Positions 2,197-55,760 of a DNA stretch of 64,000 bases are shown piece after piece. Positions within the stretch are counted from its first letter, which is position 1, and each line of letters begins with the position of its first letter. The notes below the pieces were generated by a model. That model was given only the letters and a program-made list of their open reading frames with translations. It was not told where the DNA came from and did no database searches. Origin of the DNA: Sphingomonadales bacterium (GTDB taxonomy: Bacteria > Pseudomonadota > Alphaproteobacteria > Sphingomonadales > Sphingomonadaceae); assembly GCA_025351405.1 (NCBI GenBank), contig JANXVZ010000005.1, positions 1 through 64,000 of the forward strand. Direction: 5' to 3'. The position numbers and the translations under genes were made by a program.

Positions 2197-2200
<4 letters not shown>

Positions 2201-5547: not shown

Positions 5548-5843
5548 CACGGCTTTTCACCCGCGAAACCTGGGAAACCGGCTGCACGATCGCGGTGGAA
5601 CACACCGCCGACAACCTGCATGCCCATGTCGAGCTCGATGACAATGTCGCGATCGGCCCCGGGGACCAGGTACGGGTGCATGGCGCCGCAGTGCATTTGC
5701 CGTTCGGCACGGCATTGACCTTGCGCCGCCGTGCCACTGTGTCACGCGCCAGCTTGATTGCGCGCTGGTTGACCCAGATCAAGGCGCACCTCGACCTGAC
5801 CGAGCTTTACGAAATCACCTTCAGTTCGGAGAGAATTCGGTGA
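5544..5843 (+). CDS. Conserved 99-residue protein of the photosynthesis cluster (function unknown)
   Basis: A small protein of unknown function lies between puhC and acsF, where many alphaproteobacterial photosynthesis clusters carry an unnamed reading frame. It has no signal peptide or membrane segment. The N-terminal two thirds looks beta-rich, with alternating hydrophobic residues and the motif [11 protein letters not shown], like a small beta-barrel. The C-terminal third is probably helical ([21 protein letters not shown]). It overlaps both neighbours by four bases, so it is likely made in step with PuhC and AcsF. A role in cyclase or reaction-centre assembly is inference only. Confidence 0.85.
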
Positions 5844-6901: not shown

Positions 6902-6906
6902 GTTCG

Positions 6907-7767: not shown

Positions 7768-7784
7768 GCTTCGGGGAGACCAAG

Positions 7785-9008
7785 ATGGATTATGAATCGC
7801 ATTTCAAGGCTGCTCTGGACGGCCTGAAAGAACGCGGCAACTACCGCGTGTTTGCCGAACTGCAGCGCCACAAGGGGCAATATCCCCGTGCGACCCGTCA
7901 CAATGATGATGGCACCACCCAGGAAGTCACGGTGTGGTGTTCCAACGATTATCTCGGAATGGGGCAGCACCCCGACGTTATCGAAGCGATGCATGAGGAG
8001 CTTGACCGGTCCGGCGCCGGCGCGGGCGGCACGCGCAACATTTCGGGCACCATGCACGCCCATCGCCAGCTCGAACTCGAGCTCGCCGATCTGCACGGCA
8101 AGGAGGACGCGCTGCTGTTCACCAGCGGCTATGTCTCGAATTGGGCCGCACTGGGTACGCTGGCGGCAAAACTGCCCAATTGCGTGGTGTTGTCGGACGC
8201 ACTGAACCACGCCTCGATGATCGAAGGCATCCGCCACAGCCGCGCCGAGTGCCTGAAATTCCGCCACAACGATGTCGAGGACCTCGACCGGCTGCTGGCG
8301 AGCATCGAGCCCGGCCGGCCCAAGCTGGTGGCGTTCGAAAGCGTTTATTCGATGGATGGCGATATCGCCCCCATCAAGGAAATCATCGAAGTCGCCGAAA
8401 AGCACGGCGCCATGACCTATATCGACGAAGTCCATGCGGTCGGCATGTACGGCCCGCGTGGTGGCGGCGTCGCCGAACGCGAAGGCCTGATGGACCGGCT
8501 GACCGTTATCGAAGGCACGCTCGGCAAGGCATTTGGCGTGGTTGGCGGCTATATCGCCGGCTCGCAGGCGATGTGCGACTTTGTCCGCAGCTTTGCTTCG
8601 GGGTTCATCTTCACCACGGCACTTCCGCCGGCGATTGCCGCCGGCGCGCTGGCCAGCGTGCGCCATTTGAAGGCCAGCCCCTTCGAGCGCAAGCGCCAGC
8701 AGGAACGTGTTGCCAAGGTGCGCAAGGCGCTGCGCGCGATGGGGATCCCGCAGCTCGACAACCCCAGTCACATCATCCCGGTCATGGTCGGCGACGCCAA
8801 GAAGGCGAAGATGATTTCCGACTGGCTGATGGAACACCACGGCATCTACGTCCAGCCGATCAACTATCCGACTGTTCCCGTCGGCACGGAGCGGCTGCGC
8901 ATTACCCCGTCGCCGGTCCACAGCGACGATGATATCGACCGGCTCGTCAAGGCACTCAGCGACATCTGGGGCCAATGCGCGCTGCACAGGGTCGAAGCGG
9001 CGGCATAA
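7785..9008 (+). CDS. hemA: 5-aminolevulinate synthase
   Basis: This PLP enzyme condenses glycine and succinyl-CoA to 5-aminolevulinate, the first step of tetrapyrrole synthesis in alphaproteobacteria. The 407-residue product has the PLP-binding lysine at K248 (in GTLGKAFG), the IDEVHAVG stretch with the cofactor-contacting aspartate, and the [14 protein letters not shown] motif. I chose ATG 7785 because it has a GGGGAG ribosome-binding site six bases upstream and gives the usual length. An earlier ATG at 7764 overlapping puhE would add seven residues. The gene closes the puh-acsF-hemA run, tying precursor supply to bacteriochlorophyll synthesis. A second hemA elsewhere cannot be excluded. Confidence 0.95.
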
Positions 9009-9016
9009 CCGGGCAT

Positions 9017-9041
9017 ATTCCCTGCGCCCTCGGGTGCAGGG
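9017..9041 (+). terminator. Hairpin after hemA
   Basis: Bases 9018-9024 pair with 9035-9041 (TCCCTGC/GCAGGGA), with further pairing inside, giving a stem of about 11 pairs. It sits nine bases past the hemA stop. There is no run of T after it, so it may be a weak or factor-assisted terminator. Confidence 0.45.
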
Positions 9042-9155
9042 AGTGGTCGCGTCACGGCGACAGCAAGACCATCATGAATTGACAGCCGGGCAAGGGCTGG
9101 CGATCCTGCGCTGCCGACCGCGATCCAGTATTTCGGGTCGGCGAAGGGGATTGTC

Positions 9156-10874
9156 ATGGGTCGATCGAAAAACTGTGTGCTTTCGGGCGCCGCCGCACTG
9201 CTGCTGACCCTTCCCGCCGCTGCGCTGGCCGCGGCATCGGCAGATCCATCATCGCCAGTCCCGTCATCGGCAGCCCCTGCCGCTAACGTCCCGGCCAGCT
9301 ATCAATCGCTGGTGACGCTGTTCGCGGACTGGCGGGCGTTCACCGTCCCGACCCTCAAATCCGGGGTGCCGGACTATAGCCCGGCGGCGATGGCCAAGAC
9401 GGCGGCGGCGTTACCAGGCTATCGACAGCGACTGGCAGCGATCGACAAGACCGGTTGGCCGCTATCGGCGTTGAACGACGCGCGTCTTGTCGAAGCGGAA
9501 ATGAACGGCCTCGATTTCAATTTGCGCGTCCTGCATCCCTGGTCGCGCGACCCAAGCTTCTACGCCACGGTTTTCGGCGAACAAAGCGACGTCCCGGCTC
9601 ACGAAGGCCCATCGGCCTATCCCAACATCGACCTGTTTGCCTTCAAATACCCGCTCGGCAAGGCCGACGACGCCAAAATGACGGCGCTGCTCGGCGCCAT
9701 CCCGATGACGTTGGCGGCGGCGAAGGTGAATCTTGCCGATGGCAACGCACATGACCTCTGGGCTTATGGCAACCGCGCCTTTGCCGAACAATCGGCGACA
9801 TTGAAGTCGCTTGGCGACGGCACGCTGGTGATGCGGACGCTCGAAGGCCATATCCCCGCGACAATGCGTGGCGCCAGCCCGGCATTGCGGCGCGCCATAG
9901 CCGCGGCGCGTGTCGCCACCGATGACTTCGCCGCCTGGGTCGCCGCTGAAGCGCCCGGGAAAACCGGACCATCGGGCGTCGGCAAGGCCGATTACGACTG
10001 GCACGCCCGGAATGTCGAACTGCTGCCCTATGATTGGGAGGCGCAGGCGCTGCTGCTGCGCCGCGAACTTGATCGTTCGCTGGCATCGTTGCGGCTGGAG
10101 GAGGCGCGCAACAAGGGGCTAGCGCCGCTAACCCCGATCGAAGATGCCGCTGCCTATCGCCGCATGGCCGATACCAAGACTGCGATGTTCAGCCGCTTCC
10201 TTGCCGCCAAGGGGTTCGCGCCGGATACGCCCGAATTCCGCGCGGCGATGGCAGCGCAGACCAGCGATTACGTGCCATTGAAAGACCGCAACTTCTTCAG
10301 CCATGTGACGGCGCTCGATCCGCTTCCGCTGTTGTCCCATTCGACGCACTGGATCGATCTCGCGCGGATGAAATACGCCCCTCACGCCAGCCCTGTTCGC
10401 TGGGTGGCGCCACTGTTCAACATCTACGCCAGCCGATCCGAAGGCTTTGCCACGGCGTTCGAGGAAATGGTCATGCAAGCGGGATTGTATGACGATATTC
10501 CGCATGGGCGAGAACTGGTGTGGATCATGCTCGCCAACCGCGCCGCACGTGGTCTCGCTTCGCTGCACGTCCAGGCCAATGAAATGACGCTGGCCGAGGC
10601 CGGACAATTCCATGCCGCATGGACTCCACGCGGCTGGTCCGACCCGGCCAGTCCGCTGGTGGGCTTTGAACAGCTGCTCTATGCTCGTCAGCCTGGCTAT
10701 GGGCCGAGTTATGTTATCGGCAAGGCCCAGCTCGATCGTCTGATGGCCGATGCGTCCCACGCCGACGACGTCGCCGGGCGACCGTTCGTTATGGCGGATT
10801 TCATGGCAAGGGTATTTGCATCGGGCATCGTACCGGTGGCAATGATCGGCGAAGAAATGGCGGTGACCCCGTAG
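9156..10874 (+). CDS. Secreted DUF885-family protein with a degenerate metal motif
   Basis: This 572-residue protein begins with a Sec signal peptide (hydrophobic residues about 10-26, cleavage near ALA-AASA). Its C-terminal half follows the DUF885 family, which is related to zinc peptidases: SEGFATAFEEM matches the conserved EGWALYAE region, and RQPGYGPSYVIGKAQL matches the conserved PGQA.Y.iG region. The usual HExxPGH zinc motif that should lie about 30 residues before the EG motif is not visible; there is only SHSTHWIDLAR. The protein may be an inactive or altered enzyme. It lies between hemA and bchI and has no obvious role in pigment synthesis. Confidence 0.75.
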   Translation: MGRSKNCVLSGAAALLLTLPAAALAAASADPSSPVPSSAAPAANVPASYQSLVTLFADWRAFTVPTLKSGVPDYSPAAMAKTAAALPGYRQRLAAIDKTGWPLSALNDARLVEAEMNGLDFNLRVLHPWSRDPSFYATVFGEQSDVPAHEGPSAYPNIDLFAFKYPLGKADDAKMTALLGAIPMTLAAAKVNLADGNAHDLWAYGNRAFAEQSATLKSLGDGTLVMRTLEGHIPATMRGASPALRRAIAAARVATDDFAAWVAAEAPGKTGPSGVGKADYDWHARNVELLPYDWEAQALLLRRELDRSLASLRLEEARNKGLAPLTPIEDAAAYRRMADTKTAMFSRFLAAKGFAPDTPEFRAAMAAQTSDYVPLKDRNFFSHVTALDPLPLLSHSTHWIDLARMKYAPHASPVRWVAPLFNIYASRSEGFATAFEEMVMQAGLYDDIPHGRELVWIMLANRAARGLASLHVQANEMTLAEAGQFHAAWTPRGWSDPASPLVGFEQLLYARQPGYGPSYVIGKAQLDRLMADASHADDVAGRPFVMADFMARVFASGIVPVAMIGEEMAVTP

Positions 10875-10944
10875 GGAGCGCATCAACTCGACCGCAGCGT
10901 CTCGACGACCCCATTCGGCCTTCACTCGCCTTGCCGCCCACCAC

Positions 10945-10962
10945 TGTCATGCTAGATGGACA
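10945..10962 (+). promoter_or_regulatory. Putative PpsR/CrtJ operator in front of bchI
   Basis: Bases 10945-10962 match the PpsR/CrtJ consensus TGT-N12-ACA exactly and are also symmetric as TGTC-N10-GACA. PpsR represses bacteriochlorophyll genes under oxygen in purple bacteria. The site lies one base before the bchI ATG and overlaps a possible -10 box (TAGATG at 10953) that pairs with TTGCCG at 10931. If so, transcription would begin near the ATG. About six such matches are expected by chance in 64 kb, so the position is the main support. Confidence 0.5.
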
Positions 10963-10963
10963 C

Positions 10964-11980
10964 ATGGGCAAAAGTTTTCCGTTTTCCGCAATCGTTGGCC
11001 AGGCCGAGATGAAGGACGCGCTGCTGCTGGCGGCGGTGGAACCTCGGTTGGGCGGGGTGATGGTGTTCGGCGATCGCGGCACCGGCAAATCAACGGCGGT
11101 GCGGGCCCTGGCGGCGTTGCTGCCGCCGATGATGATCGTGGCCGGTTGCCGATATGGCTGTGCACCGGGCGATACCATCCCGTGCCCGGATGACTGCCGC
11201 AAGGCGGCTGGCAAGCGGACGGCGGAGGTGCCGGTGCCGTTCGTCGACCTGCCGCTGGGCGCCACCGAAGATCGCGTCGTGGGCTCGCTGGATCTGGAGC
11301 GCGCACTTTCTACAGGGGAGAAGCGCTTCGAGCCCGGCCTGCTGGCAAAAGCCAATCGCGGCTTCCTCTATATCGACGAGATCAACCTGCTCGAGGACCA
11401 TCTCGTCGATCTGCTGCTCGATGTCGCGGTGTCAGGGCAGAATCTTGTCGAACGCGAGGGGCTTTCGGTGCGCCATGCGGCCCGCTTCATCCTCGTCGGC
11501 TCGGGCAATCCGGAGGAGGGTGAGCTTCGGCCGCAACTGCTCGACCGTTTCGGACTGTCGGTTGACGTGCGGACGCCGGCCGCGCTGGCGGACCGCATCG
11601 AAATCGTCAAGCGCTGCGACCGTTTCGACCGGGATCCGGTCAGCTTCGCCGCGCAGTTCGCAGCGCAGGAAGCCGCAACAGTGGCCGGCATTGCCGCCGC
11701 GCGCAAACGCCTGCCAAGGGTCGAAGTCAGCGATGCGATCCTCGAACTGGGATCCCGGTTGTGCCAGGCGGTGGGGGCCGATGGCCTGCGCGGCGAATTG
11801 ACCTTGCTGCGCGCGGCGCGGGCACGGGCGGCGCTGGACGGCAAGAAGATGGTCACGGCGGTGCATGTGGCGAAGGTGGCGACAGTGGCGCTGCGGCATC
11901 GCCTGCGCCGCAATGTCCTCGACGATACGGGATCGACCGTCCGCATCACCCGGGCGCTGGACGAGCTCATTTTAGCGTGA
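10964..11980 (+). CDS. bchI: Magnesium chelatase ATPase subunit I (BchI)
   Basis: BchI is the AAA+ ATPase that forms a ring with BchD and drives Mg2+ insertion by BchH. The 338-residue protein starts MGKSFPFSAIVGQ, matching the family N-terminus. It has Walker A at about residues 36-43 (GDRGTGKS), the cysteine-containing insertion near residues 61-78, Walker B at about 134-139 (FLYIDE), and the sensor region VGSGNPEEGELRPQLLDRFG. ATG 10964 was chosen because it begins at the conserved N-terminus; ATG 10949 and TTG 10931 would add non-conserved residues. No good ribosome-binding site precedes it, which fits a leaderless message. bchD follows by overlap. Confidence 0.95.
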   Translation: MGKSFPFSAIVGQAEMKDALLLAAVEPRLGGVMVFGDRGTGKSTAVRALAALLPPMMIVAGCRYGCAPGDTIPCPDDCRKAAGKRTAEVPVPFVDLPLGATEDRVVGSLDLERALSTGEKRFEPGLLAKANRGFLYIDEINLLEDHLVDLLLDVAVSGQNLVEREGLSVRHAARFILVGSGNPEEGELRPQLLDRFGLSVDVRTPAALADRIEIVKRCDRFDRDPVSFAAQFAAQEAATVAGIAAARKRLPRVEVSDAILELGSRLCQAVGADGLRGELTLLRAARARAALDGKKMVTAVHVAKVATVALRHRLRRNVLDDTGSTVRITRALDELILA

Positions 11981-40508: not shown

Positions 40509-43775
<3,267 letters not shown>

Positions 43776-43779
<4 letters not shown>

Positions 43780-44831
43780 CGGAGCCGCAACCGCGTCGCA
43801 TCCGTGCCGACGCCATCAAACAGCGCCGCGTCGGTTCCGGTCATCCAGACCTGGCTGCCGGTCGCGGCGAGGCGCTCGAACAGCGTGCCGCGACGGGTGG
43901 CATCGAGATGCGCGGCGATCTCGTCGAGCAGCAGCAGCGGCGCACGCCCGGTTCGGGCGGCCACCAGCTCCGCATGAGCGAGAATGATGGCGATGAGCAA
44001 CGCCTTCTGCTCGCCGGTCGAGCCCATCGCCGCGGCGGCATTCTTGGCGGCGTGGGTGACGAGAAGATCGGCGCGATGCGGCCCGATGAGCGCACGGCCG
44101 GCGGCGGCATCGATATTGCGGTTGCGCGCCAGCGCCGCAGCAAGGTCCGGCGTATCCGGCGTCAATGCCAGCAAGGGCCGGGCAAACGGACTTTCGGGCT
44201 CGCCCGCCAGCCGCCCGCCGAGCGCTGCCACGGTCTCGCTTCGCGCCGCGGCGATCGCTGCGCCATGTTCCGCCATCGCTGCCTCCAGCGCTGCCAGCCA
44301 ATGCGGATCGGCGGGCGTGTCGGCGGTCAGCAGTCGGGTGCGGGCGCGCATCGCGGCGTCATAGCGCACGGTCTGGTGTCCGTGACCGGGATGCAGCGCC
44401 AACACCAGCCGGTCGAGGAAGCGCCGCCGCGCGCCGGGCGTATCGGCAAAGATCCGGTCCATCGCCGGCGTGAGCCACACCAGTGCCAGCCATTCGCCCA
44501 AGGCAGCCGCACTGGCGCCGGCACCATTGATGCGCACCAGCCGCCGCTCCGGCGCGGCTGCCGCGGTGCCTGTGCCGAGTTCGACATCGCCATCACGGCC
44601 CGACAAGGTTGCGGCAATGCTCCAGTTGCCGGGGCCGGCGTGCCGTGCTGCTTCGGATAGCGGCGCGCCGCGCAGCCCGCGTCCCGGCCCGAGCAGCGAG
44701 ATCGCGTCGAGGATGTTGGTCTTGCCGGCTCCGTTTTCACCGGTGATGACGATGGCGCCCGAGCCGACCTCCAGCGCCAACGCGGCATGGCTGCGAAAAT
44801 CGGTCAGCGTGAGGCGCGTGGCGGCAGGCAT
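43776..44831 (-). CDS. recF: DNA replication and repair protein RecF
   Basis: RecF is an SMC-like ATPase that helps load RecA at gaps. The 351-residue protein has Walker A at about 31-38 (GENGAGKT), [23 protein letters not shown] as the Walker B region and [21 protein letters not shown] as the signature region. ATG 44831 begins [15 protein letters not shown], the family start. An open frame upstream runs through repeat-rich DNA at the end of the photolyase gene and is not part of RecF. The gene is 19 bases after phr and overlaps the ceramidase-like gene. Confidence 0.92.
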
Positions 44832-44850
44832 CGGCTCCGGGTGTAGCGGA

Positions 44851-46458
44851 TCAGGCGGGTCTGTCACCTCCGGCGCTGTCACATCCGGCCCTGTCGCCTC
44901 CGGCCCTCTCGCCGATCGCCCACTGCCGCGCGCCGGCGGGGAGTGATGCGAGAAACCCCGCCACCTGCGCCCGGATGGCGTCCTGTTCGCCAGGGTCGAA
45001 GCGGTCCCAGCCATCGTACATCCGCCACAGCCGCTGGTTGCCCTTCAGCGTTTCGCGATGGCGGGCGAGGAAGTCCCAATACAGGCTGTTGAAGGGGCAG
45101 GCGCCGGTGCCGGTGCGTTTCTTAACGTCATACCGGCACTTGCGGCAATGGTTCGACATCCGATTGATATAGGCACCGCCGGCGGCATAGGGCTTCGAAC
45201 CCATCAGGCCGCCATCGGCAAATTGCGACATGCCGATGACGTTGGGCGTCTCCACCCATTCATACGCATCGGCGTAGACGGCCAGGTACCATTCATGGAC
45301 CTGTACGGGGTCCGCGCCGATCAGCATGGCAAAATTGCCCAGCACCATCAGCCGCTGGATATGGTGTGCCTGGGCGTTGCGCTTCGTCGCGTTGATTGCC
45401 TCACCAAGGCAACGAAGGTCGGTCTGCCCGGTCCAGTAGAATGCCGGCAGGTCGCGCGTCGCCTTGAGGTGATTGCGCGCGGTATAGTCCGGCCCGGCGA
45501 TCCAGTGGATACCGCGGACATATTCGCGCCAGCCGAGGATCTGGCGGATGAAGCCTTCGGCGGCGTTTATCGGCACCCCGCCGTCGCGGAACGCCGCCTC
45601 CGCTGCATCGCAGACTTCGCGCGGCAGCAGCAGCCCGGCATTCATCGCGGCGGAAAGCTGGCTATGGAACAGGCTGTCCTCGCCCTCGACCATGGCATCC
45701 TGGAAATCGCCGAATTGCGCCAGCCGATGGGCGATGAAATCGTCAAGGCATTCCAGCGCCTGTGCCCGGGTCACCGCCATGGTGAAGGGCAGCAGGTCGC
45801 CGAAATGCCCGCCGAAATGCGCTGCGACGGTGTCGAGAACCTGCGCCGTAATCGCATCGGGCGCGAATTGCGGCAGTGCCGGGTAGGTCATGCCCCGGGG
45901 CGGTGTCTTGCGGTTTTCGGCGTCGAAGTTCCAGCGGCCACCGGCGGGATCGGCGCCATCCATCAGGATTCCGGTCTGGCGGCGCATCTGCCGATAGAAG
46001 TCCTCCATCACGATGCGCTTGCGGCCCTCCGTCCAGGCGGCGAAGTCACTGCGGCTCGACAAAAATCGGTCATCGGCAAGAACGTCACACGGCAACCCGA
46101 CGCGATCGCTCCAGCCCTGTTGCGCCGCAATGACCCGCCATTCCCCTGCCTCGACCGCCACGATGCGCGCCACCTTGTGCCGTTCGGCGGCGCGGACGAT
46201 CTCGCCGTCAAAACTCTGGCTGTTGCCCGCATCGTCGAGCTTGACATAGTCCACGGTCCAGCCGTCGGCGGCCAATTCTCCGGCAAAGTGCCGCATCGCC
46301 GCGAACAGGAAGGCAATCTTTTTCTGGTGATGGCGCACGGCGGTCGCCTCGCCGGCGACCTCCATCATCAGCACGACCGAGTTGGCTCGGGATGCACCGC
46401 GCAATGAAGCGAGGCCGTGGCTGAGCTGGTCACCCAGGATGGGAATGAGTGTTGTCAT
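44851..46458 (-). CDS. phrB: Iron-sulfur cryptochrome/photolyase (PhrB, FeS-BCP class)
   Basis: This FAD protein of the FeS-BCP group is related to Agrobacterium PhrB, a bacterial (6-4) photolyase. The 535-residue product starts [14 protein letters not shown]. It has the C-terminal catalytic half with [24 protein letters not shown], and the four cluster cysteines at 350, 438, 441 and 454 (counting from ATG 46458), the same numbers as in PhrB. That agreement decides for the second of two adjacent ATGs. The last about 20 residues are a repetitive GDRAG tract encoded by a minisatellite. DNA repair by visible light suits an organism exposed to sun. Confidence 0.92.
44860..44919. repeat. Four tandem 15-base units at the 3' end of the photolyase gene
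   Basis: Units run 44860-44874, 44875-44889, 44890-44904 and 44905-44919, the last one degenerate. They encode the repetitive C-terminal tail of the photolyase and lie just upstream of recF. Confidence 0.75.
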
Positions 46459-46593: not shown

Positions 46594-49500
46594 TTACCGA
46601 CGCGGCGACCAATCCGCCATGTTGACCGTATCCGCGACGAAGAACGGCTTGCCGTCCGGGCCGATGAACATGCGCTCCATTTCCGCCCGGTTGAACGGCC
46701 TGGCGCCAAGCCTTCCCACCACGGCGATCTGGTGGCCGCTTTCATCGACGGCCCTGTCGCGGTCGAGGCCCTTCGACATCGCCAGCGCCGGCTGTCGCAT
46801 GCGCGCAAAGGCGATGAGTTCGGGCTTTGGTGCCGGCGAAAAGCCGTAGAAATTGGGCTGGCTGTCGGGGGACGTCAGTTGCAACACCTTGAGGCCGTTG
46901 CGGCCATCGGCGACATAGGCGAACAGCGAGGCGTTGGTGCTGCCGATCACCACATCCTCGGCATCGTTGAGCGCGCCATCGGCGGTGAAGCGCTGGTACA
47001 GGCGCGGCGCCTCGGGGCGCTTGACGTCGATGATGACCAGCCCTTCGGCCTTGGCGGCGACATAGGCAAAGGTGCGCGCCACATAGACCTTCCGCGCGTC
47101 GGCGATCGCGACCGTTGCGCCAGGGACCGGGACGGGGCGGTCGAGGCGGGTGACGTCGAGCACCTCGAGCCCGTGTGCCGTCGTCACCCAAAGATAGCGG
47201 AATTGCAGCGCCGAGGCGCGTGGGTCGTCGAGCGGCACTGTCGCCGAAAGCGCGGGATGCAGCGGGTCATCGAGGTTGACGACCACCAGCGCGCGCGGGG
47301 TCGCGACATAGGCAAAATGCCCGCCGAGCGTGACGTGGCGCGCGCCAGTGAGGGCACCCCCCGGGTTCCAGGTGACGGCGCGCCGCAGGAAGTTGTTGCG
47401 CGGCTCGCCGTCGGCCAGCGTGTCGATATCGACGAGGATCAGGCCCTCGATGGCATCGGTGACGACAGCGTAGCGATACAGCGGGTGCATCGGCTGTTCC
47501 TGGTTGAAGCCACCCAACGGATCGGCCGGCACTTCGCCCCTCGCCCGCTGCGACTGCTCCTGCATCATCCGGTCGTTGCGCACGACGGCGATGGGCTGGT
47601 CGGTCGGCAGCGCGACACAGGTGGCGTTCGCCGAGGCGACGCGGGTGTTGTTGCCAAGCCTGGAAAACGGCGCGGTGACGATCTTTTTGGATACGCCCTT
47701 GTTGCCGATGCTGGCGATATCGAAGACGCGAAAACCGCCGCGGCCTTGCGCGACATACAGGTATTCACCGCGCGTTTGCAGGCAGTTGACCGGACCACCC
47801 GCGCCCTGGCGGATATTGCGGATGTCCTCGACCGGGTGGGTTTCGCCGGAGCCTTTGCCGTCGAACACCCGCCCGCGCACCCAATCCTTCAACTCGCGCT
47901 TGTTGGTCTCGACATGCGCGCGCCAATAATCGGGATAGGCATATTTTTGCAGGTAGGAGCCAAATACCGCCTGCGGCTCGCCGAACTCGCTGACGCGGAT
48001 GGCTTCGACGGCGCCGTCCACGCCCGCACCCGTTCCGACCCCGGTTCCGATCCCGGTTCCGACCCCCGTCCCCACCCACGCATGGAGCCCGACGAAATTT
48101 ACGAAATTGGTGCCGTTCAGCAGCAGCTGCGCCATGATGGCGTTGTTGTCGTTGGCTTTCGAGACATGGCAGTCGCTGCAGGTCTTGGTTTCGGTCAACC
48201 GCTCGGTGTGGGGGAAATGCGGCGCGAACGCCTGCGACGAATACCCCGAAGCCGCAATCGGCGGTTGCTGCACATAGATGCGTTCGCGATTGATGTTGGT
48301 AGACGTCAGCATCAGCGCCGATGACGAGCGGATGGGGGCGATGATATTGCCCTTCGACGTCTGGTGGCGGCCAAGCTGGAACATGTCGTCGCGCGCCACC
48401 TGCGGGTTGTATGTCGCAAAATTGCGGGTTTCCTGCGGCTCGTACTTGTGGCTGCCGGTCTTCCAGTTGGCCTCGATCGGCAAATGGCAGCCGCCGCACG
48501 ACGGCGTCCACGAGATGTGGCACGCATAGCACGCCATGTTGCTGTCGCCGTGCGCCCGGTCGGCGGCGGCGATGCCGGGGCCAAAGGCGATGTCGCCGCC
48601 GGGGCGGACGATGCGCCCTATCAGCTTGGCGCGGGCGGCGCGCGGGTTGAAATCTGGGTTGCCGCGGGTGACCGAATCCTGGGTCAAATGGATGCGCCAT
48701 TCCAGTTTCGGGTTGCTGACCGAGCGTTGCAGCAGCACCCGGCGGCCGCCTTGTTCCACCCATTGGAAGCGCGGCCGGCCATCGGGGTTGCGGATCAGCG
48801 TCAGGTCCTGCCCATCGGGGCGCGCCGCGAGGTTGGAGGTGCGCAGGCTGGGATAGACGTCGGCGGTGCCGTGACAATCCTTGCAGCCGATCTCGACGGC
48901 GTTGGCGACCTCGCCGTGGATGAAGCCGTTGCCATGGCCGTCCTGGGCAAAATGGCAATCGCCGCACTGCATCCCGACTTCGGCGTGGATCGACATCATG
49001 TGGACGGCCTTGCCGGGCTGGCCGGGGCCGGGGGTGGCGGCTGGCTCGACAAACTGGCCATTGCCGGACTTGCGCCATTTTTCGGGGTCGTTGCTGGCGA
49101 CGATGTTGCCCCGGGCATCGAGCAGGTTGCCGTCGCGGTCACGCTTGTAGGCGGCGCGGAAATTCCAGCCATGGCCGTGATAATCGGCGAACTGGGTGTC
49201 CTTGTTGGCGGGGTTGCGGTCGTTGACGGTCCGCAGGAATTCGGGATCGCTCCACAGCCCGCGCGGCGCGGCGCCTTCGGGATTGCGCTCGTTGACGTCG
49301 CGGACCTGCGCGGCCGTGGGGTAGCGTTGCAGCTTTGGCCACATGTTCGGCGCATCCGATTCATAATCCCACATCGTGTAGCCAAGGTAGGAATTCACGA
49401 ACATGTTGGGCTGGTGCATATGGCAGTTCATGCACTGCGCCGTCGGGATGGCGCGGGTGAAGGCGTGGCGGATCGGATGGCCGGGTTCATCCTTGGGAAT

Positions 49501-50601
49501 GGTCGGGTCGGCACTGAAGCTGCGCCCGTCGCGGCCATATTGCGCATAGACCGACGAATGGCGCGGCTCGCGATCATTGGCATAAACGATGTGGCAGGCG
49601 CCGCAGCCGGAGGTGCGATAATCGCCCGGCTGGTCGTTGGTGCCCATGAACCAGGTAAACGGATCATTGAGGCGGGTCTTGTGGATGTTGATCACCGGCA
49701 CGGCGATGCGCAAACCGGTGCCGGGGCCGCGGTTGGACTGGCGAATGTCGGGCCGGCCAGGTTCCTCCAGCCGTTGCAGCGCGCCCAGGCTGTCGGGCAG
49801 GCCGATCTCTGGAAAGGTCGGGTTGATGTTGCGGCCGCCGCGCTCGAAAACGCGGAAGATGTCACCGGGCGGGAGCACCTGCCATGTCGGCAGCGGCAGC
49901 AGGAAGGGCAGCGCGCCGCGCCGGCGCGCCGCATCGGACAACGCGCCCGGGTTCATGCCGGGCGAACCGGGAGACAACAGCATCGCTGGCTGGCCGTCAC
50001 GGGTATAGGCTTCGCCGGTGATGTAGTTTTTGTATGGCAGGATGCCGTTGTTATAGCTCGCACCGCCGAACAGCATGGCACCGGTCGCCATCATCGATCG
50101 TTCGGCTGCCACGATCGTGTCGATATGGCAGGCGCCGCAGCTTTCACGGACAACGCGATAGTCGGACGGATTGACGAAGCGGACGAATTCCGGGGCCTCG
50201 CGATTGAGCAGGATGTAACTGCGCTTTGGATTGGCCGAGGACGGAAAGTGCCACGCCTGCGGGTAGCGCGGCAGCACATGGGCGCGGTCGCGCAGCACGA
50301 CATAGCGCGGGTCGGTCGCGGCGATGCCGGCCGCCGCCACGGTGACATCGCCGCCGTGACAATCGGTACAGCCGAGCACCACCGATCTGGGCGCGTGCAT
50401 CGTCCATTCGTCGGTGGCGGTGTGGCAGGTCATGCAGCCGCTGCTCTTGGCGTCCGCCTGCACCTGCGTCTGGGACTTTGGCGCGGCGGGTGCGGTGACG
50501 CGGCTGTAGTCGCGAGCGACGGGTTTTTCGCCTTCGGACGCCGGCGCCATGGCGGCGACCAGCGCAAGCGCCACCCCGATGCAAAGTCGGCGCAGTCGCA
50601 T
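46594..50601 (-). CDS. Decaheme c-type cytochrome fused to a C-terminal beta-propeller (LVIVD-like repeats)
   Basis: This 1335-residue exported protein has a signal peptide (about residues 3-22, ending APA-SEG), so it is mature in the periplasm or at the cell surface. Ten CXXCH heme motifs lie in the first about 815 residues, at about C56, C78, C155, C333, C390, C546, C573, C691, C702 and C808, in three spaced groups. A linker at about 840-865 is a VGTG repeat. From about residue 940 to the end come LVIVD-type repeats (YLYVAQGRGGFRVFDI; YAVVTDAIEGLILVDI; FAYVATPRALVVVNL; FAYVAAKAEGLVIIDV), which form a beta-propeller. The hemes are much sparser than in MtrA-type decahemes. ATG 50601 overlaps the barrel gene's stop by one base. 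I do not recognise a named family for the whole protein. Confidence 0.9.
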   Translation of the reverse strand: MRLRRLCIGVALALVAAMAPASEGEKPVARDYSRVTAPAAPKSQTQVQADAKSSGCMTCHTATDEWTMHAPRSVVLGCTDCHGGDVTVAAAGIAATDPRYVVLRDRAHVLPRYPQAWHFPSSANPKRSYILLNREAPEFVRFVNPSDYRVVRESCGACHIDTIVAAERSMMATGAMLFGGASYNNGILPYKNYITGEAYTRDGQPAMLLSPGSPGMNPGALSDAARRRGALPFLLPLPTWQVLPPGDIFRVFERGGRNINPTFPEIGLPDSLGALQRLEEPGRPDIRQSNRGPGTGLRIAVPVINIHKTRLNDPFTWFMGTNDQPGDYRTSGCGACHIVYANDREPRHSSVYAQYGRDGRSFSADPTIPKDEPGHPIRHAFTRAIPTAQCMNCHMHQPNMFVNSYLGYTMWDYESDAPNMWPKLQRYPTAAQVRDVNERNPEGAAPRGLWSDPEFLRTVNDRNPANKDTQFADYHGHGWNFRAAYKRDRDGNLLDARGNIVASNDPEKWRKSGNGQFVEPAATPGPGQPGKAVHMMSIHAEVGMQCGDCHFAQDGHGNGFIHGEVANAVEIGCKDCHGTADVYPSLRTSNLAARPDGQDLTLIRNPDGRPRFQWVEQGGRRVLLQRSVSNPKLEWRIHLTQDSVTRGNPDFNPRAARAKLIGRIVRPGGDIAFGPGIAAADRAHGDSNMACYACHISWTPSCGGCHLPIEANWKTGSHKYEPQETRNFATYNPQVARDDMFQLGRHQTSKGNIIAPIRSSSALMLTSTNINRERIYVQQPPIAASGYSSQAFAPHFPHTERLTETKTCSDCHVSKANDNNAIMAQLLLNGTNFVNFVGLHAWVGTGVGTGIGTGVGTGAGVDGAVEAIRVSEFGEPQAVFGSYLQKYAYPDYWRAHVETNKRELKDWVRGRVFDGKGSGETHPVEDIRNIRQGAGGPVNCLQTRGEYLYVAQGRGGFRVFDIASIGNKGVSKKIVTAPFSRLGNNTRVASANATCVALPTDQPIAVVRNDRMMQEQSQRARGEVPADPLGGFNQEQPMHPLYRYAVVTDAIEGLILVDIDTLADGEPRNNFLRRAVTWNPGGALTGARHVTLGGHFAYVATPRALVVVNLDDPLHPALSATVPLDDPRASALQFRYLWVTTAHGLEVLDVTRLDRPVPVPGATVAIADARKVYVARTFAYVAAKAEGLVIIDVKRPEAPRLYQRFTADGALNDAEDVVIGSTNASLFAYVADGRNGLKVLQLTSPDSQPNFYGFSPAPKPELIAFARMRQPALAMSKGLDRDRAVDESGHQIAVVGRLGARPFNRAEMERMFIGPDGKPFFVADTVNMADWSPRR
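48029..48075. repeat. About four 12-base units encoding the VGTG linker of the decaheme protein
   Basis: Tandem units related to CCCGGTTCCGAC lie between the last heme motif and the propeller and encode a flexible Val-Gly-Thr-Gly linker. The unit is four codons, so linker length could vary in frame between strains. Confidence 0.7.
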
Positions 50602-52454
50602 CAATAGCTCAGCACGGCGTTGAGCAGGACGCTGTAGTAATTGCGATGGCGCGTGCTGTTGGTGAACAGGTCGGCAAAGCCCGATGCCGGCGCGAACACC
50701 GCGCCCGACAGCCGGAATACCAGGTTCTGGTTCATCTGCGGACGATAGATCGTCGAAGCCGACAGATCGTTGCCGATCGCGCGGGGAATCCCGCCTTCAT
50801 TGCGAAGTGCCTGCAGGATCGCGGTGTCGACGAACCACAGGTGATTGGCATTAAGCGACAGCCGCAATTCCGGCAGCAGGTCGAAATCGGCCCCGATGCC
50901 GGCCAGGATGGTGCCCGGGTTGTTGAAGTTGGACTGGCCCTCCTCCTTCGACGATCGCAGCGAATTGAGGATGCCGTTGCGGCCATTGAGGGCGACGGCG
51001 CGGCCGCCGCCGGCAAACGGAATGCTCTGGCGGATCCAGTAGCTGGTGTCGGCACCGGCGAATTGCGGATTTTCAAAGATCGCGTCGAAACCGTGCTCGC
51101 GATTGTCATGGGGGTTGGAATCGCCCGAGGCATACAGCCCCGACAGCCGGACGCGCGTCCAGTTGAGGTCGATCGAGGGCTCGGCGGCGAGGAAATACGC
51201 GCTGATCTTTGCAGGCCTGCCGGTGAAGATCGAATTGCGGTCCTGCCCGGTGGCATACCAGGCGCTGGCGGTCAGGTTGATGCGGCCGATGTGGCCATCG
51301 GCGTTGTAGCCCAGATAGGTCACATCATAATCGCGCCGGCGCAGGTCGCCGATCAGCGCCGGCCGGGCGGGAAAGCCGTTGGCGTCGATATGGGTCTGCC
51401 CGGCCTCGCGATTGCGGTTGTGGACGATGCTGACTTGCGATGTCAGGCCCGGAAAGGGCAGATCCTGACGGTAGAGGTTGGCGACGAAGACATGGTCGCG
51501 GCGCAGGCGCTGGGTGATGTCGTTGAGCCCGGAGTTGGTATCCTTTTCCAGCCGGGCGAACACCGCGAGGTTGTACTGCCAGCGATTGTCGTCGCGATCG
51601 CCGAACAGCCGGATACCGAGCTGGTTGTCCTGGAACAGGAAGCCGCGGAAATCGCTGGAGAACGGCTGGACGCCGATGCGCACCGAATCGAAATCATAGC
51701 GGTCGGATACATTGCGCAGGTGATAGTCGAGGAACATCTCCTGGACGCCGATGAAGCTGTCGCTGCGGTGTGGCGGCGCCGTCGGGTTGACCGACAACAG
51801 GCGGCGTTCCGACACCGAAACATGGTTGAACTGCAAAGCCAGTGCGACACGGATTTCATATTCCGGCGGCTTGAAGGCAGTGGACCCCTTCGTCAGCGCA
51901 GCGCCGAGGATGACGGTCTGCGCCAGCAGCAGCGAATGATCGCGGCCAAAGGTGTCGTTGCTGCCGGGGTGATCGGTGGTCTGCACGCCGACCGGCTGCG
52001 GAAAGCTGCGCGGCTCGATGACGGTGTCGCTGACTGCAGACAGCGTCAGGAACAGGTCGTTGGTGCCGCACAGTGGCCGGTCCCCCTTCAGCGTATTCTG
52101 GTGATAGGGGTCGGACAGGCGCGAATGCACGCCCACGGCTTCGGCCAGCCGCCAGCGGTCCGGCACCGGGACATGATCGCGCGGAAACGCCGATGGCGGC
52201 GGTGCGGTGACGGCGCCGGGGTTGGATTGGACGACGGGGGCAGGAAGCGCCGGGGCGGCAAAGCCGGGGCGGCGGCGGCCCTCGACCGGGGCAAGCGCCG
52301 GATCGGCGGGTGATACGGCAGGCCCCGGTTCGGCAGCGCGTTCGGGACTCGGCTTGGCCGTGTCGTAACAATCGAACCAGCCCCCCGCCGTCGCCGGGCC
52401 GGCGCTCGCCAACCCGGCGACAAGGGCGAGGCCCTTAAAGATTCTGGCAGACAT
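50601..52454 (-). CDS. Outer-membrane beta-barrel protein of the multiheme operon (family not recognised)
   Basis: This is a 617-residue predicted outer-membrane protein. The signal peptide is about residues 1-24 (ARIFKGLALVAGLASAGPATA). A proline-rich stretch (about 35-110) follows, then some 450 residues with alternating hydrophobic and polar residues typical of barrel strands (YEIRVALALQFNHVS; INLTASAWYATGQD; TRVRLSGLYASGDS), ending in LLNAVLSY with a terminal tyrosine. No heme motif is present. I do not recognise the family: it could be the barrel of a porin-cytochrome conduit, by analogy with MtrB/PioB, or a substrate porin. ATG 52454 lies 20 bases inside the end of the lipoprotein gene. 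Confidence 0.85.
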   Translation of the reverse strand: MSARIFKGLALVAGLASAGPATAGGWFDCYDTAKPSPERAAEPGPAVSPADPALAPVEGRRRPGFAAPALPAPVVQSNPGAVTAPPPSAFPRDHVPVPDRWRLAEAVGVHSRLSDPYHQNTLKGDRPLCGTNDLFLTLSAVSDTVIEPRSFPQPVGVQTTDHPGSNDTFGRDHSLLLAQTVILGAALTKGSTAFKPPEYEIRVALALQFNHVSVSERRLLSVNPTAPPHRSDSFIGVQEMFLDYHLRNVSDRYDFDSVRIGVQPFSSDFRGFLFQDNQLGIRLFGDRDDNRWQYNLAVFARLEKDTNSGLNDITQRLRRDHVFVANLYRQDLPFPGLTSQVSIVHNRNREAGQTHIDANGFPARPALIGDLRRRDYDVTYLGYNADGHIGRINLTASAWYATGQDRNSIFTGRPAKISAYFLAAEPSIDLNWTRVRLSGLYASGDSNPHDNREHGFDAIFENPQFAGADTSYWIRQSIPFAGGGRAVALNGRNGILNSLRSSKEEGQSNFNNPGTILAGIGADFDLLPELRLSLNANHLWFVDTAILQALRNEGGIPRAIGNDLSASTIYRPQMNQNLVFRLSGAVFAPASGFADLFTNSTRHRNYYSVLLNAVLSY

Positions 52455-54399
52455 TCTGGTCCGATGTGTCGAGCAACGGCGCGAACGGGCAGTTGACGAA
52501 GCGCAAGCGCACGCTGGCACCGCCGACCGGCACGATGATGCGGTCGCTGCGGATGGCAGCCGGTGGCAGGCCGATGCCGCCGACCCGCAAGCCGGCGTTG
52601 ACGGTGCCGAGGAACGAAATCATGTCGTCCTGGTCGATGCCGTCACCCGAAACACCGATCGCGCCGACAAGGGTGCCACCGCGATAGATCGGCACCGATC
52701 CGGGGAAGATCTGCATGCCGTTCTGCAGCCGGTTGCCGCCGCCCGGTGTGTCGGGCAGGAAGCTGCACCGCGCCGGGCTGCCGCCGCCGAGCAGCTGCAC
52801 CAGGTTCTGCACGATGAGCGCCGATTGCAGCCCGGTCGAGAATGGTGAAAAGCTGGCGATCGGTCGTGACAGCGGCCCGTTGGCAGTGCCTGCCTGGCCA
52901 TCGGGAAAATAGGGCCGCGCCAGGTTGCCGATGGCGCGATCGGAGACGCCGTATTTGCCGGTGAGGAAATCGCCCGAGCCGAGGAAGCTGTTCACCCGCG
53001 CCACATAGTCCCGCACATTGGCGTCCGGCGCCCCCGACGCCGTGGTGACCGCGGCAAGGTCGGCGGCGGCGTGGCTGCCCGAAAAGAACGCCGCCGTGCG
53101 GGCCTTTTGCAGCGCCACATCGATGCCGAAGACCGGTGCATCGGGGGATCGCACCAGCCCCAGCGCCACGCCGCGGGTGTCGACGACGCTGATCGAAACC
53201 TGCGCCCGGCTGTCGAGCGGCTGGCGAATTTGCGCCCGCGCCCGGCTCATGATCTTGAAGGCTTCCTCCAGCAGCGCCCGGACCTCGGCCTCGCTGAGCG
53301 CGGTACCGACCTCTGCGGCATCGCTTCCCGACCGCGCCGGGAAGCGGTTGTTGCCGCTGCCATCGCTGAGCACAAAGGCATCGGGATTGTTGAATTCCGC
53401 CAGGCTGGCAGCCCGGATGCCGCTCGCCTCGCTGCCATAGGCGGCGCCGGCAAGGACGGTGCCGGCATAGAATCCCGCCACCGGCGTCAGGCTGCCGGCG
53501 CTGCCATTAAGGCTGGCGAACGCCGGGGCGCTGGCCGGCGCCGAGCGCAATTGTGTCTCGTCGGTATCGGAATAGCGCAGGGTTGTGCCATCGATGCTGA
53601 TGCGATCGGCCCGGATCGCAGGGTCGGGCGCAAGTCCGGTGCCGGCCGCCAGGGCGATGGCTTCCTCGGCGTCGCTGTCCTTGTCGAGCACTTCGGGGTC
53701 GAAGCCATAATCCCCGTCGGCCATGACGCCGACCCCGCCGACGACGACGCCGTTCTTGTAGAGCGGGAAGCCGCCAGGATCGGCGGCGAGACCGACCGGC
53801 GTGCGGCGGGGACCCGCCTGTGCACCGCCACTGCCGAAGCGCGTGGCAAGGTCGGAACACGGCAGCGACGAAAACTGCACCCCGGACAACGGACCGGACT
53901 CGAGGCCTGCGGTGGTCGCCGACGGCGGAAAATTCTGCTGGACGATCATCGAGGCGGTGCGGGTCGAAAAGGCGTTGCCGCCCGACGACAGGTAGGCGCC
54001 CGTCATGGCCTTGCTGATCGCCCCCAATGCCGCGGGAAAGCCAATCCCCTGCAAGTCGGTGTTGCCGCTGGTGCCGGCGCGGGTCATCGCCGTGGCGCGG
54101 GCGCCGGTCATGCTGAACACTGCCAGCACGTTGCCGACACGATCGACGACGGCGATGACGGCGGGGGTCGATCGCGCCTGCGCCTCGGCGATGGCACGGG
54201 CGAGCACGCCTTCGACCTCGGCCTGGCTCAAGGCCAATTGCGCTGGCCTTGCATAGACGCTGGCCGGGGTTGCCGGCGGCGTTGTCGGGGTGGGCGTGCC
54301 GCCGCCTCCGGATGTCGATCCACCGCCGCCGCCGCACGCGCCCAGCAGCAGCGACAACCCTGCGACAATGCCGCCGACGACGGCGATGCCACGCTTCAT
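52435..54399 (-). CDS. Lipoprotein with two GlcG/HbpS-type heme-binding domains
   Basis: This is a 654-residue predicted lipoprotein: the lipobox LLLGAC places the acylated cysteine at residue 22, followed by a Gly/Thr/Pro spacer. Two domains of the GlcG/HbpS (DUF336) fold follow, roughly residues 50-270 and 360-640. Each has the helix LSQAEVEGVLARAIAEAQ or LSEAEVRALLEEAFKIMSRA and then a sheet VIAVVDRVGNVLAVF or ISVVDTRGVALGLV, with VGGVGVMADG or VGAIGVSGDGIDQDD near the end. HbpS-type proteins can bind heme. Between cytochrome genes it may handle heme or protect it, but that is inference. It overlaps the pentaheme gene (ATGA) and the barrel gene. Confidence 0.87.
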   Translation of the reverse strand: MKRGIAVVGGIVAGLSLLLGACGGGGGSTSGGGGTPTPTTPPATPASVYARPAQLALSQAEVEGVLARAIAEAQARSTPAVIAVVDRVGNVLAVFSMTGARATAMTRAGTSGNTDLQGIGFPAALGAISKAMTGAYLSSGGNAFSTRTASMIVQQNFPPSATTAGLESGPLSGVQFSSLPCSDLATRFGSGGAQAGPRRTPVGLAADPGGFPLYKNGVVVGGVGVMADGDYGFDPEVLDKDSDAEEAIALAAGTGLAPDPAIRADRISIDGTTLRYSDTDETQLRSAPASAPAFASLNGSAGSLTPVAGFYAGTVLAGAAYGSEASGIRAASLAEFNNPDAFVLSDGSGNNRFPARSGSDAAEVGTALSEAEVRALLEEAFKIMSRARAQIRQPLDSRAQVSISVVDTRGVALGLVRSPDAPVFGIDVALQKARTAAFFSGSHAAADLAAVTTASGAPDANVRDYVARVNSFLGSGDFLTGKYGVSDRAIGNLARPYFPDGQAGTANGPLSRPIASFSPFSTGLQSALIVQNLVQLLGGGSPARCSFLPDTPGGGNRLQNGMQIFPGSVPIYRGGTLVGAIGVSGDGIDQDDMISFLGTVNAGLRVGGIGLPPAAIRSDRIIVPVGGASVRLRFVNCPFAPLLDTSDQNVCQNL

Positions 54400-55760
54400 T
54401 GCAGTGCCGCCAGCCGCGAAGCGACCCCCGCCAGCGCATCGCGGAATTGTGCCGGTTGCCAGCGATTGGCATCGCGGGTCGCGGCATAGGCCCTGTCGAG
54501 ATCGGGGCGGATGGCGCGCGCCGCGGCACGATCAACATGGTGCGCCGCCACCAGCGCCGACAAAAGCGTGTCCGCCGCCATCACTGCCTGCGCGCCGCCC
54601 TGGTAATCGGTGTAGCGCGCCGTGTCGGCGAGCACCGCATCCAGCATGGCAAAGCCCTGCGCCCGGTCGAACCGACTGCGCTCGAAGGTGGCGGCAAGTT
54701 GCTCCGCGGTGGTGGCGAGCGCCGCACCGGCGCGCAGCGTGGCGGCGCGGTCGCCGCTGAAGCTGGCGTGAAATGCCTGTGATTGCGTGTCGAACCGGCG
54801 CGCCAGCCCCGGCGCCGCGACCTTTGCCGCGACGCCCAGCAGGATCATGTTTTCATCGTTCCACACCGGCTGGCCCGGCGGAATCGGCCGGCCCGGGTTG
54901 CGGCGCGCCACCAGCGGCACCCCCGGGTCGTCGCTGAAACTGCGGTGGCACGACCGGCAATCGAAGAAGCCGAATTCGGGGAAGGCACCGCCGGCGCGGG
55001 CCGGATACAGCGCCAGTGCCCGCTTGACTGCGATCGCCTGGCCGACTGCCCAGACCTTGACCCCGCCGGGCACGCCCTTGCGCGCCGCATAGTCGGCATC
55101 CTCGTCATGATGGGCCTGCAGGCTGGTGAACAGGTCAAGCTCGAAAGCCAGGCGCGGATGGCCGGCGGCCATGAGGCGGTGGGCGACGAATTGCCCGGGC
55201 TTGCCCGAGCCGAAATGGCAATCGAGGCACAACTCCGCACGGACCCTTGGGCTGTCCACCGCCAGCATCCCGCGGGCAACATTGTCGGCATGGCCGGCGC
55301 CCACGGCGGCATGGGAGGCAAGCCAGCCCTGCGCGCCGCCGTGGCAGACCTCGCAGCCGACGCCATCGGGCTGCCGCCATCGTGCATCGTGGCGCGGCGC
55401 CTGATCGGCATGGCAACCAAGGCATTCCGCCGCCTGCGCCGCATCGGCAATCCCCAGGCGGGCCGCAATCCCGCGCGCCCGCGGCGTCTGCAACACCCGC
55501 CACGCCCGAGAATGCGCGCCGGTCAGGCTGGCGGGGTTCTGCCAGGTCAGCAGTTCGTTCTGGCGGACCACCGGCCCGGTCGCCTCCTGCCGGCCGTGGC
55601 AAGTGGTGCCGCTGCAACTGGCAACGCCGATATGGAGGCCGGGGTCGAAGCCACGCGGCAACGGCGATGCCGCAGCGCCCGCAGCCAGCGTCAGGAGCGC
55701 AAACGGCAACGCTGCCCGGTGCGGCCGCCATCGCAGTGTCGCCGCCCAGCCCCCGACCAT
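54396..55760 (-). CDS. Pentaheme c-type cytochrome (cytochrome c554-like)
   Basis: This is a 454-residue exported cytochrome. After a twin-basic-containing signal peptide (hydrophobic part about residues 18-32) come five heme sites: an unusual CX4CH (CSGTTCH, about 49-55), then CLGCH (113), CEVCH (136), CLDCH (178) and CRSCH (268). The CX4CH followed by spaced CXXCH sites resembles cytochrome c554-family multiheme proteins. The C-terminal about 150 residues are helical with no heme. Several distal histidines (HSRAW, AGHPR, QAHHDED) could be axial ligands. I chose ATG 55760, which has AGGGG five bases upstream; a GTG at 55778 is the alternative. It is the first gene of the operon. Confidence 0.88.
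   Translation of the reverse strand: MVGGWAATLRWRPHRAALPFALLTLAAGAAASPLPRGFDPGLHIGVASCSGTTCHGRQEATGPVVRQNELLTWQNPASLTGAHSRAWRVLQTPRARGIAARLGIADAAQAAECLGCHADQAPRHDARWRQPDGVGCEVCHGGAQGWLASHAAVGAGHADNVARGMLAVDSPRVRAELCLDCHFGSGKPGQFVAHRLMAAGHPRLAFELDLFTSLQAHHDEDADYAARKGVPGGVKVWAVGQAIAVKRALALYPARAGGAFPEFGFFDCRSCHRSFSDDPGVPLVARRNPGRPIPPGQPVWNDENMILLGVAAKVAAPGLARRFDTQSQAFHASFSGDRAATLRAGAALATTAEQLAATFERSRFDRAQGFAMLDAVLADTARYTDYQGGAQAVMAADTLLSALVAAHHVDRAAARAIRPDLDRAYAATRDANRWQPAQFRDALAGVASRLAALQ

Follow-up and report, generated by a model that had tools for sequence, protein, structure and literature searches.

The closest described relatives of the system that we present here are porin-cytochrome systems. 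According to its description, PCC4 has a porin, cytochromes with 4, 5 and 10 hemes and a five-helix protein, and its subgroup II adds an iron-sulfur protein of family PF13247; the inner-membrane protein of PCC3 and PCC4 has two WX3HX13H motifs and an SGXXG motif, a pattern that He et al. (2017, PMC5566968) interpret as two hemes b. In the same source PCC3 is described by multiheme cytochromes with tens of hemes, at 22–39 residues per heme, and by porins mostly with many membrane segments, up to 42; MtrB, with 28 segments, holds the decaheme cytochrome MtrA (PMC5566968). The extHIJKLMNOPQS cluster of Geobacter sulfurreducens is described as coding for a porin-like protein, cytochromes with 5, 12 (ExtM) and 10 hemes and a b-type inner-membrane cytochrome (PMC5877670). 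Another source lists five clusters as conduits for Fe(III) and Mn(IV), extHIJKL among them, and puts the extHIJKL deletion mutant at 66% of the wild type on Fe(III) citrate (PMC6148476). Here we study a four-gene operon of a Sphingomonadales bacterium (assembly GCA_025351405.1). It is found on the minus strand of the window, by which we mean the whole stretch of 64,000 nucleotides analysed (contig JANXVZ010000005.1, positions 1–64,000). The operon is probably the outer half of a seven-gene chain that would lead from NAD(P)H to a station in the outer membrane.

The first gene, penta (54396–55760), codes for a pentaheme c-type cytochrome similar to cytochrome c554, of 454 amino acids (aa) from its ATG; a longer open reading frame (ORF) starts with GTG at 55778. 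It is followed by GlcG2 (52435–54399, 654 aa), a lipoprotein with HbpS/GlcG-like domains, by barrel (50601–52454, 617 aa from ATG), a predicted outer-membrane beta-barrel, and by deca (46594–50601, 1335 aa from ATG), a decaheme cytochrome with a C-terminal part similar to an LVIVD beta-propeller. All four ORFs are open at the place where the first-pass annotation had put them. With ATG starts at 55760, 54399, 52454 and 50601 the overlaps are exactly 4, 20 and 1 bases, as it had reported. That annotation had taken the four genes as a possible new electron conduit of the outer membrane. The operon and the idea of a porin-cytochrome system stand; the four genes are probably not the whole system, since an inner half had been missed: an oxidoreductase (FADox), a membrane protein (b561) and a second decaheme cytochrome (FHA-decaheme), which in the same genome are found on another contig, C27.

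FADox has a Pyr_redox region, two cyclic nucleotide-binding (cNMP) domains and 4Fe-4S domains, with a match to PF13247. Sixteen cysteines are invariant in the 7 sequences aligned, enough for four [4Fe-4S] clusters; the protein of our genome has GxGxxG motifs for FAD and NAD(P) and no clear transmembrane helix. The two WX3HX13H motifs of b561 are present in 42 of 42 sequences, with SGXXG between them in 38, and among 2796 ORFs of at least 150 aa this two-motif pattern is unique to those 42. A crude hydropathy scan finds five helix-like stretches in the b561 of our genome and four in that of G368, a genome from another class. We consider b561 a putative five-helix, di-heme-b-type protein with the PCC3/PCC4 signature; in the one protein scanned (L025), PF01292 scores 23.5 bits, under its cut-off. 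In FHA-decaheme we find an FHA/YscD-like domain at the N-terminus, one transmembrane-like helix and ten CXXCH motifs, invariant in the six sequences aligned. We do not take its FHA domain as a sure reader of phosphothreonine: the matches are weak, and the serine which usually precedes the conserved histidine of the FHA motif seems to be lacking. Kinship of this cytochrome to deca beyond the heme motifs is also rejected (hhalign 57%, E 1.1e-4).

These features are shared with PCC3 and PCC4: a porin, several multiheme cytochromes and a five-helix protein with two WX3HX13H motifs and SGXXG; the PF13247 match of FADox is like subgroup II of PCC4. The differences are that the present cytochromes have 5, 10 and 10 hemes, against 4, 5 and 10 in PCC4, and that an FHA domain, a propeller, a GlcG lipoprotein and a cNMP oxidoreductase are not named in the description given of PCC4 and PCC3 (PMC5566968), from which our system is set apart by that description only. 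Membership in PCC3 is rejected: deca has about 134 residues per heme, penta about 91, and the barrel about 18 strands, which do not fit the PCC3 definition. There is also a likeness to NADPH oxidases and ferric reductases, where cytoplasmic NAD(P)H and FAD feed two membrane hemes b, an analogy drawn for the PCC3/PCC4 protein in its description (PMC5566968). Unlike those enzymes, our system would place Fe-S clusters between FAD and the hemes b and continue outside with multiheme carriers of c type, and PF01794 was not found in the b561 of L025.

The outer block is strongly conserved. Relatives were obtained by a scan of genome contigs, and we kept the best 80 of 442 deca-encoding stretches, 61–78% identical. 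Their titles name Sphingomonadales and Caulobacterales, some of them only Alphaproteobacteria, Proteobacteria or Pseudomonadota. A search for co-occurrence of the four families, as suggested in the first-pass annotation, finds them linked in one order and on one strand in 65 of the 80 loci; a contig end cuts 13 of the remaining 15. Over-long ORF starts make two of the 65 loci look swapped; with proper starts the order and strand are the same in 65 of 65, and the claim of a single operon holds. Measured from the upstream stop to the start of the longest ORF of the gene that follows, the median distances are −4 bases in 63 pairs, −16 in 67 and −1 in 73.

In many relatives the inner module lies beyond deca as a further cassette, which in most cases is encoded on the other strand. 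In 61 loci the sequence extends 8.5 kb or more beyond deca, and in these we counted the flanking genes. FADox, b561 and FHA-decaheme are found together in 32 of them, and FHA-decaheme or FADox in 39; a metallophosphoesterase (phosphodiesterase-like) gene is present in 43 and a CHASE2-cyclase gene in 25. In G368 the two halves form one colinear minus-strand run of seven genes: FADox, b561, FHA-decaheme, GlcG2, barrel, deca and penta. In another genome (G154) the run FADox, b561, FHA-decaheme, GlcG2, barrel is interrupted by the contig end; FHA-decaheme and GlcG2 are separated there by about 1.5 kb in which no gene was recognised. Co-occurrence is also found across the phylum. Among 398 genomes, barrel is present in 12 and full-length FHA-decaheme in 15, and all 12 are within the 15 (hypergeometric p 1.6e-20, kinship ignored). 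Full length means here more than 300 bits, a threshold set after viewing the list: the 15 genomes have 307–818 bits, the next best 42. The other 109 of the 124 genomes matching FHA-decaheme have the FHA part or short heme pieces only and were set aside. Eleven of the 12 barrel genomes have deca; the twelfth is G154. The outcome that the first-pass annotation had named as fatal to a conduit, a barrel always unlinked to cytochromes, is thus contradicted: the barrel is with the cytochrome module in 12 of 12 genomes.

Several observations weigh against a single seven-gene system. In 22 of the 61 loci neither FHA-decaheme nor FADox is found in the available flank. G154 has the barrel, and a deca match is found nowhere in its genome. 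Three of the 398 genomes (G001, G034, G153) have the inner module without the outer block; in G001 the contig ends soon behind it, and in G034 and G153 a single ORF of about 1120 aa covers both FADox and b561 (L151 5850–9206, L152 3052–6423). In two loci, L011 (8018–13944) and L046 (8013–13999), neither GlcG2 nor penta adjoins barrel and deca, which may be a reduced form or the result of a rearrangement. To these points may be added those on the location of deca, the width of the barrel, the phenotype of Geobacter mutants and the place of a cyclase gene, which are given below.

Our proposal builds on the genes present, their linkage and co-occurrence, the ligands of hemes and clusters, the cNMP cassettes, the inner-membrane signature and the homology of deca to ExtM, all of them observed in the sequences; the type of the barrel comes from a model. 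In the chain that we infer from them, with its complex formation, electron order, outward direction, surface exposure, regulation and substrate, NAD(P)H would be oxidised in the cytoplasm by FADox, an enzyme with FAD and four [4Fe-4S] clusters. The five-helix di-heme-b protein b561 would take the electrons across the inner membrane and hand them to FHA-decaheme, held in that membrane by its one helix; penta would then carry them through the periplasm. The station at the outer membrane would consist of the AlgE-like barrel, the GlcG lipoprotein and the ExtM-like decaheme-propeller protein, and an extracytoplasmic acceptor would be reduced there or beyond. Such a chain would sum up to NAD(P)H, FAD, four [4Fe-4S] clusters, two hemes b and 25 hemes c. 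Cyclic nucleotides bound by FADox would probably set its activity, with a phosphodiesterase-like gene and often a cyclase gene nearby.

The barrel has no match at 0.01 in Pfam or in NCBIfam. Its AlphaFold2 model, of modest confidence (pLDDT 67.8, pTM 0.68), has about 18 strands, formed by residues 133–616 of 617 (50607–52058, minus strand); residues 1–127 are nearly all of low confidence. The protein ends in tyrosine and has a signal-like N-terminus; by eye no lipobox is seen. The best Foldseek match is AlgE (3rbh, E 1e-17), with MOMP and OprD-type channels next. An MtrB/PioB-type barrel is rejected: PF11854 is found at 0.1 in none of 50 barrel members, and MtrB is absent among the best 50 of 867 fold matches. 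PF11854 has no match in our genome, and of 14 control genomes only Caulobacter vibrioides matched, below the cut-off, which makes it a weak positive control. The model thus indicates that the barrel is AlgE/OprD-like with about 18 strands and not of MtrB/PioB type. The likeness to MtrCAB, PioAB and MtoAB is limited to the outline of a barrel with multiheme cytochromes: there is no barrel of the MtrB_PioB family, and deca does not have the lipobox of a surface lipoprotein of MtrC/OmcA type.

The barrel of AlgE also has 18 strands, so that fold and strand number of our model agree with it. A role like that of AlgE, with the barrel moving a polymer in or out and the cytochromes modifying or sensing it, has this best fold match in its favour, as well as weak matches to Alginate_exp (PF13372) in 4 of the 50 members at 0.1 (best E 0.001) and two alpha-amylase genes which lie beside FADox, before the operon, in G368. 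We consider it very unlikely. The barrel is tied to the cytochrome module in all 12 barrel genomes, no glycan family is found in the 8 ORFs scanned around the module of our genome, and the barrel differs from the AlgE exporter by its identity of 11–14% to the AlgE rows of Foldseek and by a PF13372 score of 15.1 bits, under the cut-off of 25.2.

The ten CXXCH motifs of deca are found in the same number in 79 of 80 relatives. The ten-heme region extends from Cys57 to His813 of the 1336-aa ORF (48166–50436, minus strand), and the strongest repeat of the C-terminal part is in residues 1169–1206 (46987–47100, minus strand; Pfam LVIVD, PF08309, 1.9e-15). The heme part aligns over 539 columns with an alignment of five ExtM-like sequences (hhalign probability 99.9, E 3.6e-36). 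It does not reach the curated cut-off of ExtM (NF040943), with 60.8 bits against 800; three of the five ExtM-like proteins were scanned and are also below it, with 169–233 bits. Across our genome the ExtM model gives two weak matches, both within deca. With PF22113, by which a surface decaheme lipoprotein of MtrC/OmcA type was tested for, the score is 21.4 bits, under the cut-off of 30. Neither the sequence of deca nor its profile found a match among the sequences of the PDB. The first-pass annotation had seen no correspondence of the heme spacing, the propeller fusion and the GlcG lipoprotein to known conduits; this is corrected for the heme part of deca, which has ExtM-like kin. With the Geobacter ext cluster our system shares the same kinds of parts; it differs by having in deca 10 hemes and a propeller and by missing the ExtM cut-off.

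Relatives of deca show some variation. Many of them (for example L053, L069 and L076) have between hemes 4 and 5 an insert rich in His, Asp and Gly, of up to about 60 residues (alignment columns 401–470), perhaps a metal-binding loop, which is lacking in the deca of the window. The latter has, at about 48010–48080 after the tenth heme, an insert of GTGVGTGIGTG-like repeats; none of 25 aligned relatives has one of such length, and a short form is found in L009. In five genomes (G639, G698, G744, G726, G644) the deca match comes in two pieces about 80–210 bases apart within one open frame, which indicates small inserts in the heme part of some members, three of them of our own genus. Other genomes of the phylum have ExtM-like cytochromes of about 760–850 aa with 10–12 CXXCH (L105, L106, L107, L108, L110); in the four genomes read there is no similar operon around them. 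In L158 a 5-heme gene, labelled NapC-like by eye, lies beside such a cytochrome.

The homology to ExtM-like cytochromes can also be read in another way: an Ext-like chain would reduce a soluble substrate in the periplasm (tellurite, selenite or a chelated metal) admitted by the barrel, with no crossing of the outer membrane. High tellurite reduction is known in phototrophic Sphingomonadales. The N-terminus of deca is signal-like, probably a signal peptide, and no lipobox is seen by eye, so that deca could stay in the periplasm. The predicted barrel of about 18 strands resembles the AlgE and OprD channels and is narrower than MtrB; for this reason a substrate, rather than electrons, may pass through it. 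The description of the Geobacter cluster points the same way: loss of extI, the gene of its porin-like protein, affects the reduction of selenite and tellurite, and not that of Fe(III) citrate (PMC5877670). On the other side stand the low ExtM score of deca and the neighbouring genes: no rhodanese or Rieske protein, by which the ext cluster differs, is found in the 8 ORFs scanned around the module in our genome, in 7 around the operon of G368 and in the 17 annotated features of L161 (selenoproteins were not sought). A soluble substrate would need neither a long propeller nor a lipoprotein. We regard this periplasmic reduction as possible and somewhat unlikely; that electrons actually cross the outer membrane, as in the chain proposed above, has in our opinion a little less than an even chance.

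The five hemes of penta are bound by four CXXCH and one CX4CH, a pattern kept in 63 of the 64 relatives scored. They occupy the stretch from Cys55 (CX4CH) to His278 (last CXXCH) in the numbering of the 460-aa ORF (54945–55616, minus strand). Pfam gives matches similar to cytochromes c554/c7, and the profile matches cytochrome c554 (1bvb, E 4.2e-7); kinship to ExtM-like cytochromes beyond the heme motifs is rejected (hhalign 61%, E 8e-5). The N-terminus has one transmembrane-like stretch, probably a signal peptide, and by eye no lipobox. Histidines kept in at least 95% of the sequences are 5 proximal and 7 others in penta (66 sequences), 10 proximal and 18 others in deca (82 sequences). Because of these spare conserved histidines bis-His ligation appears possible for all hemes of both proteins. 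GlcG2 matches PF03928 (HbpS-like) in three stretches, with 83.2 bits against a cut-off of 25 (E 2.2e-23). Its lipobox-like Cys22, recognised by eye, is present in 67 of 70 sequences. No histidine is conserved in at least 95% of these 70 sequences, so that binding of heme by GlcG2 is doubtful. In the heme counts among relatives we dropped ORFs with less than 85% cover: 4 of 71 for GlcG2, 2 of 75 for barrel and 1 of 65 for penta.

Both cNMP domains of FADox have a GE(V/M)...R.(A/S)(T/S) cassette in the 7 sequences compared; such a cassette binds the phosphate of the nucleotide. Control of the system by cyclic nucleotides is a fair inference from these domains. The metallophosphoesterase, which in our genome lies 2.2 kb behind the inner module, scores 88 and 112 bits with models of cyclic-nucleotide phosphodiesterases, whose cut-offs are 225 and 400. 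In G368 the CHASE2 cyclase lies three genes from the TPR gene adjoining penta. FecR and TPR genes are found between cyclase and penta, so that the cyclase may belong to another module. The genes which follow the operon there are TPR, FecR, a cadherin/propeller protein, a metallo-beta-lactamase-fold gene and the CHASE2 cyclase (L114 4169–14031, L115 13427–18070).

The window also contains part of a photosynthesis gene cluster (2197–11980), with PucC, PuhA (PRCH, reaction-centre H) and a magnesium-chelatase (BchI-like) gene; the reaction-centre L/M genes of our genome are on contig C23. The first-pass annotation had placed the operon in the frame of phototrophy, which is not borne out. PF00124 exceeds the cut-off in 31 of the 116 genomes with deca and in 24 of the 177 without it, a weak association (odds ratio 2.3, p 0.006 by Fisher's test with kinship ignored); the other 85 carriers have no type-II reaction-centre gene above the cut-off. 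We therefore reject a bond to phototrophy: the system would not be part of photosynthesis. The same count bears on the possibility of an inward flow, in which external donors (Fe(II), Mn(II) or other cells) would feed electrons into the quinone or NAD(P)+ pool, as has been suggested for PCC3 and PCC4. The signature of b561 agrees with it, since in the description of those systems the authors model a path from an extracellular donor to quinone (PMC5566968). Most carriers have no reaction centre to use such electrons, and a regulated output driven by NAD(P)H would agree better with a flavoenzyme of NAD(P)H type that has cNMP domains and four [4Fe-4S] clusters, so that we consider the inward direction unlikely.

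Other genes lie near the two halves in our genome. On C27, CcmF and CcmH-type genes for cytochrome c assembly are in front of the inner module, and an ORF similar to FAD amine oxidases lies between FHA-decaheme and the phosphodiesterase-like gene (L093 13985–15697). The module adjoins dnaN, for DNA polymerase III beta (L093 16660–17775), and the window operon is near gyrB and recF (40509–45014; recF labelled by eye). These three genes are often neighbours near the replication origin, which suggests that the two halves may once have adjoined.

The distribution of deca is broad within the family. It is found in 116 of 293 sampled Sphingomonadaceae genomes (42 of 96 genera), some in pieces; all 116 are counted as carriers, including genomes in which it is truncated or runs over more than one contig. 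In the 398 phylum genomes deca has matches in 19, of which 8 with fragments only were left uncounted; the 11 with full-length deca are 8 of the same family, 2 of other families of the class and G368. Among 197 genomes of the order of G368, full-length deca is present in G368 only. On plasmids it is found in 13 of 72,556 records, 12 from Sphingobium and one from Sphingopyxis; a tblastn search of the plasmids with b561 matched only 12 Sphingobium records. In Sphingobium herbicidovorans the whole system is carried by pMSHV (L161), a replicon of 959 kb that is typed as conjugative. Just upstream of the system lies a gene for a protein of 2092 aa, to which Pfam gives no match, and ShlB/FhaC-type secretion genes are found on both sides (L161 1–6665, 26125–27804). 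In this record, the one annotated record examined, the system is annotated piecemeal.

By the tests made, the present system appears to be none of those described: its inner membrane part would be built like PCC4 and its large cytochrome is like that of ext, so that it would represent a new version of a porin-cytochrome system. Among the titles and starts of abstracts listed for the open-licence literature we found no description of it. For the aerobic Sphingomonadales and Caulobacterales we tentatively suggest, as a possibility still open to much doubt, a conduit gated by cyclic nucleotides and driven by NAD(P)H, with an AlgE-type barrel and a decaheme-propeller protein through which reducing power would be released at the outer membrane or outside it: an extracellular electron transfer controlled by a second messenger. 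Sphingomonadaceae are usually regarded as plain aerobes; a candidate chain from NAD(P)H to the outer membrane, counted by deca, is present in 116 of the 293 genomes sampled from this family. The system would join an ExtM-type cytochrome with an inner-membrane protein of PCC3/PCC4 type and add to them an input by cyclic nucleotides, which would make the regulation of such an electron export directly testable in culturable Sphingobium.

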